The translations under genes were made by a program, and so were the position numbers. From Planctomycetota bacterium (GTDB lineage: Bacteria > Planctomycetota > B15-G4 > JADJEK01): 64,000 nucleotides of DNA. The stretch is from contig JACQZJ010000099.1 in assembly GCA_016213895.1 (NCBI GenBank), forward strand, positions 1 to 64,000, in the 5' to 3' direction. This document shows, in pieces, positions 62,744-63,973 of the stretch (positions are counted from its first letter, which is position 1; each line of letters opens with the position of its first letter). Below the pieces are notes generated by a model, which was not told where the DNA came from, ran no database searches, and was given only the letters and a program-made list of their open reading frames with translations.

Positions 62744-63163
62744 CTAGCGCGTCAGGTGCTGCCACGCGGCTTCGGCCGACGAACTCACGTCTCTGAGCGC
62801 GGCGTCGAAGCCGGACGAGAGCTCCTCCCAGGCTTTGCCGGACCGCGACTTCAGCTCCTTCAGCCGCTCGTCCGCGCCGGCCAGCTTCTGGCGCAAGTCC
62901 TCGACCGCCTGGTCCAGCTCCTCCCTGGCCTGGCCCTGGGCCTCCGCGGCCCGCGACTTCAGCTCCTCGTAGCGTCCCCTGACCGACTCGAGCTGCGTCT
63001 CGGCGTTCTTGATGAACTCCTGCTGCGTCGCGGTCAGGTACTCGGAGGTGGCGTCGATCGCCTCGCCGATCTTCTCGCGGGCGTTTTGGGCCTTCTCGTC
63101 ATCGCCGCAGGCGGGCAGCGCAGAAAGCGCGAGCGCGGCGGCGAGCAGCAAGTAGATTCTCAT
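62744..63163 (-). CDS. Small lipoprotein with long coiled coil
   Basis: The 139-residue protein has a lipobox (LSALPAC, C19) and then about 115 residues of amphipathic helix with heptad-like spacing (IGEAIDATSEYLTATQQEFI, SVRGRYEELKSRAAEA, QAVEDLRQKLAGADERLKEL). It resembles YtxH-like or stress-associated coiled-coil proteins but is too simple to assign. It lies four bases upstream of the DUF6288-type gene, so the two are probably cotranscribed. Confidence 0.7.
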   Translation of the reverse strand: MRIYLLLAAALALSALPACGDDEKAQNAREKIGEAIDATSEYLTATQQEFIKNAETQLESVRGRYEELKSRAAEAQGQAREELDQAVEDLRQKLAGADERLKELKSRSGKAWEELSSGFDAALRDVSSSAEAAWQHLTR

Positions 63164-63238
63164 GGCGTTGACTCCTGATCGTACCGGTCGCGGGGCGCTC
63201 GAGCGCTCCGCCGGCCCATCAGCATAGCGCGGCCGGCC

Positions 63239-63973
63239 TCAGCGCGCCGCGCGCGCGGCCGCGAGGATCTCGTCCGGCGTGGCGCGCGCCCCCACGTTGT
63301 CGGTCGCGTGCTTCCACTTCACCGTGCCGTGCTCGTCCACCAGGAAGAGGGTGGCGTAGAAGACGTCCGAGAGGTCCGGCCCAGCCTTCCTGTGCCGCAG
63401 GCCGAGCGCGTCCATGAGCCTCCCGCGCTCGTCGCTGACCACGGGGAAGGTCAGGCCCAGGCGCTCGGCCTTCTTGCGCGCCGTGCTCGCGCCGTCGCTG
63501 CTCGCCGCCACGACGGAGATCCCCGCCGCGCGCAGGGCGTCTTGCTGCTCGTGGAGCCGGACCAGCTCCGCGACGCAAGAAGGTCACCAGAAGCCGCGGA
63601 ACAGCACGATGAGCTGCAGTCCGCCCGGCGCCGCGGCGCCGGCGGCGACCAGCCCGCCGCTCGTGGCGTCGGCCAGCTCGAGACGCGGGAAGGCGCTTCC
63701 CACCCCCGGCCCCGCGGGCCGCCCCGCGCCGTAGTCATGTAGCACGGCGAGGGCGAAGACGAAGACGGCGGTGTACAGCAAGGGGACGAGCGCGGCGAGC
63801 CGCACCGCCAGGTGGCCGGAGTTCCTCAGGTGGAGAAGGGCCAGCACCGCGCAGAGCAGAAGCAGCGCGTAGATCGGAAGCGGGTGGCGGTCGAGCGCGC
63901 ACCAGCGCAGCCCGACGTAGGCGTAGGTGGTGGCGGCGGCGACGAGGAGCGCGGCGATCAGGTACACGGTCAA
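63239..63973 (-). CDS. Membrane-anchored AhpC/TSA-like selenoprotein (UGA at the peroxidatic position)
   Basis: ATG 63973 opens a 244-residue frame that is continuous across one TGA at 63586-63584 (residue 130). Residues 1-85 are three hydrophobic helices (AALLVAAATTYAYVGL, PIYALLLLCAVLALLHL, LVPLLYTAVFVFALAVLH). The rest is a thioredoxin-fold peroxiredoxin-like domain: GGLQLIVLFRGFW, UGA, PSCVAELVRLHEQ, GISVVAASSDGASTARKKAE, LTFPVVSDERGRLMDALGL and DLSDVFYATLFLVDEHGTVK. Homologous proteins have RGFWCPFC at this place, so UGA replaces the active-site Cys in a U-P-S-C133 motif. A SECIS-like hairpin follows. Sec incorporation is the likely reading; the bacterial sel genes are not in this window. 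Confidence 0.85.
63541..63586 (-). promoter_or_regulatory. Candidate bacterial SECIS element
   Basis: Fourteen bases after the UGA, GGAGC pairs with GCUCC around the loop UGGUCCG, which holds GGUC, the loop string of the E. coli fdhF SECIS that SelB reads. An outer helix CUUGC/GCAAG (63579-63575 with 63545-63541) can extend it. Spacing fits the bacterial rule that the element lies immediately 3' of the UGA inside the coding region. Confidence 0.7.

Follow-up and report, generated by a model that had tools for sequence, protein, structure and literature searches.

A probable membrane-anchored redoxin selenoprotein in a planctomycete genus with two predicted selenocysteine-decoding systems

The stretch of planctomycete DNA analysed here (64,000 nucleotides of one contig, hereafter the window) contains a redoxin-like gene which is interrupted by an in-frame TGA at the very codon where a redox-active cysteine would be expected, and the question is whether this TGA ends the protein or is read as selenocysteine (Sec). 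The initial annotation had proposed a new selenoprotein at 63239-63973; these coordinates are correct, and the strand, which was left unstated, is minus.

The gene and the protein it would encode

The gene, referred to below as the Sec-redoxin gene, extends on the minus strand from 63973 (or 63967) to 63239 as one frame with a TGA at 63584-63586 as its sole interruption. Translation of the frame 63236-63973 with TGA read as U confirmed that a single frame lies on both sides of this triplet and placed it (63586..63584) at codon 130, with the terminator, also TGA, at codon 245 (63241..63239). The features of the locus are as follows:

63239..63973, minus strand: Sec-redoxin gene, 244 codons followed by a TGA terminator (63241..63239); read-through translation, Pfam Redoxin/AhpC-TSA across the TGA
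63584..63586, minus strand: in-frame TGA, predicted Sec codon 130, first position of UxxC (RGFW-U-PSC); same column TGA in 54 of 74 relatives and in the second genome of the genus
63553..63569, minus strand: predicted SECIS hairpin GGAGCUG-GUC-CGGCUCC, with a 7-bp stem beginning 14 nt past the UGA; folding, covariation in 20 relatives and in an offset class of 11
63728..63970, minus strand: three predicted transmembrane helices, residues 2-24, 31-50 and 55-82; AlphaFold2 (pLDDT ~50-75 there), hydropathy, positive-inside count in 19 relatives
63242..63703, minus strand: redoxin (Trx-fold) domain, residues 91-244; Pfam, AlphaFold2, PDB fold matches
63575..63577, minus strand: Cys133, the second redox residue of UxxC beside Sec130; does not vary in alignment A1
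62744..63163, minus strand: next gene downstream, for a small lipoprotein-like protein; gene order shared with the second genome of the genus, common operon with Sec-redoxin only putative

Two start codons come into consideration, TTG 63973, which overlaps the stop of the upstream frame, and GTG 63967. The sequence AGGGAGG lies 6 nt upstream of the GTG and directly abuts the TTG; judged from this stretch, GTG 63967 is the more likely start. The upstream neighbours are FolE-, QueD- and DusB-like, and both genomes of the genus keep the order BlaI-like regulator, FolE-like, QueD-like, DusB-like, Sec-redoxin and small lipoprotein (62744-63163 side; L113:3971-6504), the neighbour names having been given by sequence inspection rather than by family search. 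No Dsb, Ccd or thioredoxin partner was seen among the neighbours of the gene.

In agreement with the proposal that the part beyond the TGA is redoxin-like, Pfam Redoxin (9.5e-18, residues 91-227; 64.8 bits, cut-off 26.6) and AhpC-TSA (1.7e-17, residues 91-220; 63.9 bits, cut-off 26) each match as a single domain running across the TGA. The AlphaFold2 model (mean pLDDT 81) consists of three N-terminal helices, which were also claimed at the outset and are seen by hydropathy as well, and a thioredoxin-like domain, in which residue 130 immediately precedes helix 131-142; the top PDB fold matches are Bcp/PrxQ, AhpE and ResA. The combination of a three-helix anchor with a redoxin domain is found in 19 relatives scoring >140 bits, all of them with TGA save one (L022). 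In these 19 sequences K/R residues number 40 at the N-terminus and 57 in loop 2 versus 22 in loop 1 and 19 beyond helix 3, that is, 97 on the N-terminal/loop-2 side versus 41 on the loop-1/domain side, although some of the residues counted at the N-terminus may precede the true start codon. This bias points to an N-in, domain-out orientation. The helices of Sec-redoxin itself are near-neutral in this respect (2 R/K in loop 1 and 2 in loop 2), and it is by analogy with the relatives that its redoxin domain probably faces the periplasm.

The predicted Sec130-Pro-Ser-Cys133 (UPSC) constitutes a UxxC motif at the N-terminal end of the first helix of the Trx fold, as in thiol-disulfide oxidoreductases and UxxC Prx-like selenoproteins. 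Alignment with true peroxiredoxins (rows L044 and L045) puts Sec130 at the Thr position and Cys133 at the peroxidatic Cys position of PxxxTxxC, so that in Sec-redoxin the peroxiredoxin signature is absent, its Pro being replaced by Arg126 and its Thr by Sec130. A true, membrane-bound peroxiredoxin, i.e., a peroxide reductase with Sec as the peroxidatic residue, would be in line with the Pfam AhpC-TSA and Redoxin assignments and with Bcp/PrxQ and AhpE being the best PDB profile and fold matches. However, ResA structures match almost equally well, and known Sec-peroxiredoxins carry TxxU, not UxxC (PMC1088965); together with the missing signature, this makes the peroxiredoxin reading rather unlikely. 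Lacking PxxxTxxC, the predicted protein is not a canonical peroxiredoxin. Of the two activities initially suggested, peroxiredoxin is therefore doubtful and thiol oxidoreductase fits better, a UxxC thiol-disulfide oxidoreductase of the ResA/TlpA-like kind being somewhat favoured over a thiol-dependent peroxidase.

On the most likely reading, the protein would be tethered to the inner membrane by its three N-terminal helices and would present UxxC at the start of the first thioredoxin-fold helix. Sec130 would attack an oxidised substrate (a disulfide, a sulfenic acid or a peroxide), Cys133 would resolve the selenenyl intermediate, yielding an Se-S bond, and this bond would be reduced again by a thiol donor.

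The redox codon and the downstream hairpin

A search with profile A1 matched 165 of 236 phylum genomes at E <= 1e-12, most of the strongest matches having exactly one TGA, and among 58 relatives many matches had one TGA aligned at RGxW-U-PxC. In 74 non-redundant relatives (score >= 80 bits) codon 130 is TGA in 54 and TGC/TGT (Cys) in 20, a proportion which is biased toward and overstates the Sec share as the queries were Sec-derived. U/C130 and C133 are invariant in alignment A1. The placement of the UGA at the redox Cys position is thus borne out, the homologues showing either Cys or Sec at residue 130. In the domain tree Sec and Cys are clustered, with several exchanges (6 changes versus 15 with shuffled labels). 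The sole other genome of the genus seen, G001, encodes a protein of 78% identity in which the corresponding codon is likewise TGA, and keeps the hairpin too.

The hairpin initially reported 14 bases downstream of the UGA is present as described (63569..63553). A 46-nt piece containing it gives a folding energy z of -2.2 and a 66-nt piece one of -0.5; folding energy by itself is not decisive for a hairpin in GC-rich DNA, and because z varies with the piece chosen, reliance was placed on covariation and on the contrast between UGA and Cys genes. Among 20 relatives with the hairpin in the same register, 98.6% of cells are paired, a figure owed partly to selection, as rows were picked for folding in this register; the double changes, found in 4 of 7 pairs, are the stronger evidence. 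Double-changed cells number 25 versus 10.2 in shuffles, and the covariation score is 0.527 versus 0.195, with 0 of 500 shuffles as high. When the partners are slid by one column, pairing falls to <=39%; relatedness is kept in these slid-column controls and uncorrected in the shuffles. An offset class (n=11), with the stem starting three nt further on, gave the same covariation result.

The Cys relatives are without the downstream hairpin: UGA genes have a median stem score of 18 and Cys genes one of 10 (Mann-Whitney p = 1.6e-9, the rows not being independent). Under synonymous codon shuffling the UGA genes have a mean z of -1.5, with 24 of 54 at or below 5%, as against -0.2 and 1 of 20 in Cys genes; the Sec-redoxin gene itself has z -2.6. 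Both contrasts argue that in UGA users the RNA, and not the protein alone, is under selection. By its pattern of sequence change, the hairpin at 63553..63569 is the predicted SECIS element of the gene. No Rfam family matched anywhere in the whole 64-kb window at the gathering threshold, a result which is uninformative because bacterial SECIS elements are variable. A third hairpin form, GAGC-UGGAU-GCUC, with the loop nearer the UGA, occurs in a soluble branch (L032, L034, L223; RGxWUPYCNAEL).

The region 63239-63973 (minus strand) thus very probably encodes a selenoprotein, a reading for which the phylogenetic evidence, i.e., the TGA conserved at the redox column and the compensatory changes in the hairpin, was regarded as decisive. 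Truncation by an ordinary stop, leaving a pseudogene or a short protein of three helices and a partial domain, would accord with TGA being a normal stop in this organism and terminating the Sec-redoxin gene itself, yet the domain beyond the stop is intact and conserved, the codon is TGA, never TAA or TAG, over dozens of families, and the SECIS covaries, so that this explanation is highly improbable. Even less credible is the conversion of TGC/TGT to TGA by a sequencing or assembly error: the assembly is fragmented (218 contigs), but the separately assembled genome of the same genus has the same TGA and hairpin, and TGA is found in many other genomes too.

Two sets of selenocysteine machinery

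The sel genes, on which the initial proposal depended, are all present in the same genome, each of them twice over. Matches to selA were found on contigs C97 and C64 (512 and 482 bits), to selB on C97 and C82 (299 bits, and 319 bits summed) and to selD on C88 (Cys type, 432 bits) and C64 (with an in-frame TGA, 354 bits); two tRNA-Sec genes (selC) with a UCA anticodon lie on C97 and C214. Decoding of the UGA by a suppressor tRNA or a reassigned code, for which there is nothing specific, is barely conceivable given that the gene's own terminator is TGA, that two tRNA-Sec genes and a full Sec pathway are present and that the SECIS covaries with UGA. With all parts present, SelB and Sec-tRNA would decode the UGA as selenocysteine owing to the hairpin 14 nt downstream.

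The selC, selA and selB genes on C97 form a compact cluster (G000:C97:39338-42868; L009, L017, L001), and the other set is scattered (G000:C64, C82, C214; L018, L106, L010). In phylogenetic trees SelA of C64 and SelB of C82 group with family and order relatives, indicating vertical descent, and the C97 cluster branches far off (SelB stem 1.66) and looks horizontally acquired. Judged from these trees, the genus holds two phylogenetically distinct predicted Sec-decoding systems. Contamination is unlikely as a source of the second one, as both selA and both selB genes are also present in G001, where one tRNA-Sec only was found, and the contamination of the own assembly is estimated at 0.74%. Photobacterium profundum 3TCK was noted earlier to have two complete Sec operons (PMC5330540).

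Both SelB proteins retain their C-terminal end. In known SelB this end binds RNA. The selD gene on C64 (G000:C64:37114-38037; L104, L050), which adjoins selA, is itself a predicted selenoprotein gene (AG-U-AAK), and downstream of its UGA there is a hairpin, GGACCTC-GTC-GAGGTCC, which has the GUC loop in common with that of Sec-redoxin. Because of this shared loop, the vertical system would be expected to decode the Sec-redoxin gene.

Among 294 sampled genomes of the phylum, the closest SelB to the C97 copy (54%) is that of G235, a member of a different family (G235:C10:93322-95241; L232), and the G235 genome has a second SelB match. In another genome, G024, three homologues of SelB exceed the family cut-off (C156, C76 and C10; L119, L154, L155), that on C10 being very divergent (branch 2.2). 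As for further candidates in the own genome, the tRNA array beside a SelB-like GTPase (G000:C151) was read by ARAGORN as Thr, Tyr and Gly tRNAs rather than extra Sec tRNAs, from which the GTPase was taken to be EF-Tu, and sub-threshold tRNA-Sec matches on C118, C106 and C18 proved to be Ser tRNAs.

Relation to known redoxin selenoproteins

UxxC selenoproteins of the Prx-like and redoxin kinds are already catalogued (PMC13188914) and go back to PMC1088965 and PMC2398784, hence the initial designation as a new selenoprotein holds for the gene but not for the kind of protein. The catalogue (Table 1 of PMC13188914) includes Prx-like thiol:disulfide oxidoreductases (PF00578, UxxC/UxxU), which appear as Prx-like in PMC1088965 and as Prx-like 1 in PMC2398784, and a UxxC selenoprotein of the redoxin family (PF08534), for which Prx-like 3 of PMC2398784 may be compared. 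With the former Sec-redoxin shares the AhpC-TSA domain, Sec as the first residue of UxxC and the existence of Cys homologues; with the latter it shares the motif, and Redoxin is its best Pfam match. It is set apart from both by its three N-terminal helices, a distinction drawn from descriptions, in which no membrane anchor is mentioned for the Prx-like proteins, the families having been compared by motif, domain and description rather than through the reference sequences WP_010940744.1 and HEU0032618.1.

Other models are more distant. SelL/SelL-related (NF040769), the best NCBIfam match, has a redoxin fold with the redox motif at the same place, but Sec-redoxin scores 38.9 bits, far under the 120-bit cut-off, and its motif is UxxC. 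That of SelL is UxxU. Sec-peroxiredoxins (PrxU/Prx, TxxU) have the superfamily fold in common with Sec-redoxin, which has its Sec one turn earlier, lacks the Prx signature and falls far short of the NF040737 cut-off (13 versus 270 bits). The ResA/TlpA type resembles it in combining a membrane anchor, a Trx-fold redoxin domain and a redox pair spaced by two residues; it has Cys, whereas Sec-redoxin has a predicted Sec, and three helices in place of the single helix that anchors ResA. The score with the ResA model (NF002854) is far under the cut-off (35.7 versus 170 bits), although the function may be similar.

No mention of membrane anchors for UxxC Prx-like or redoxin selenoproteins was found in the papers searched, and a literature search on Planctomycetota selenoproteins returned nothing relevant. 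Within these papers the three-helix anchor of UxxC redoxins seems undescribed, so that, while the kind of protein is known, its membrane-anchored branch is possibly new; as predicted from sequence, it occurs widely across the phylum. Tentatively, it might represent a distinct undescribed family of periplasm-facing, mostly Sec-encoded UxxC redoxins with a three-helix anchor, widespread in the phylum, serving extracytoplasmic redox control at the membrane and, in this genus, accompanied by two Sec systems that maybe divide the selenoproteome.

Ordinary gene callers would end the protein at codon 129, so that half of Sec-redoxin is lost here and probably in dozens of related genomes. If the periplasmic reading is true, the protein would add a site of Sec chemistry that is tethered to the membrane and lies outside the cytoplasm. 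The covarying SECIS set may offer a phylum-wide view of signal recognition by SelB in these bacteria, and the dual Sec systems would serve as a natural experiment on whether distinct signals can be read by two SelB proteins in the same cell.
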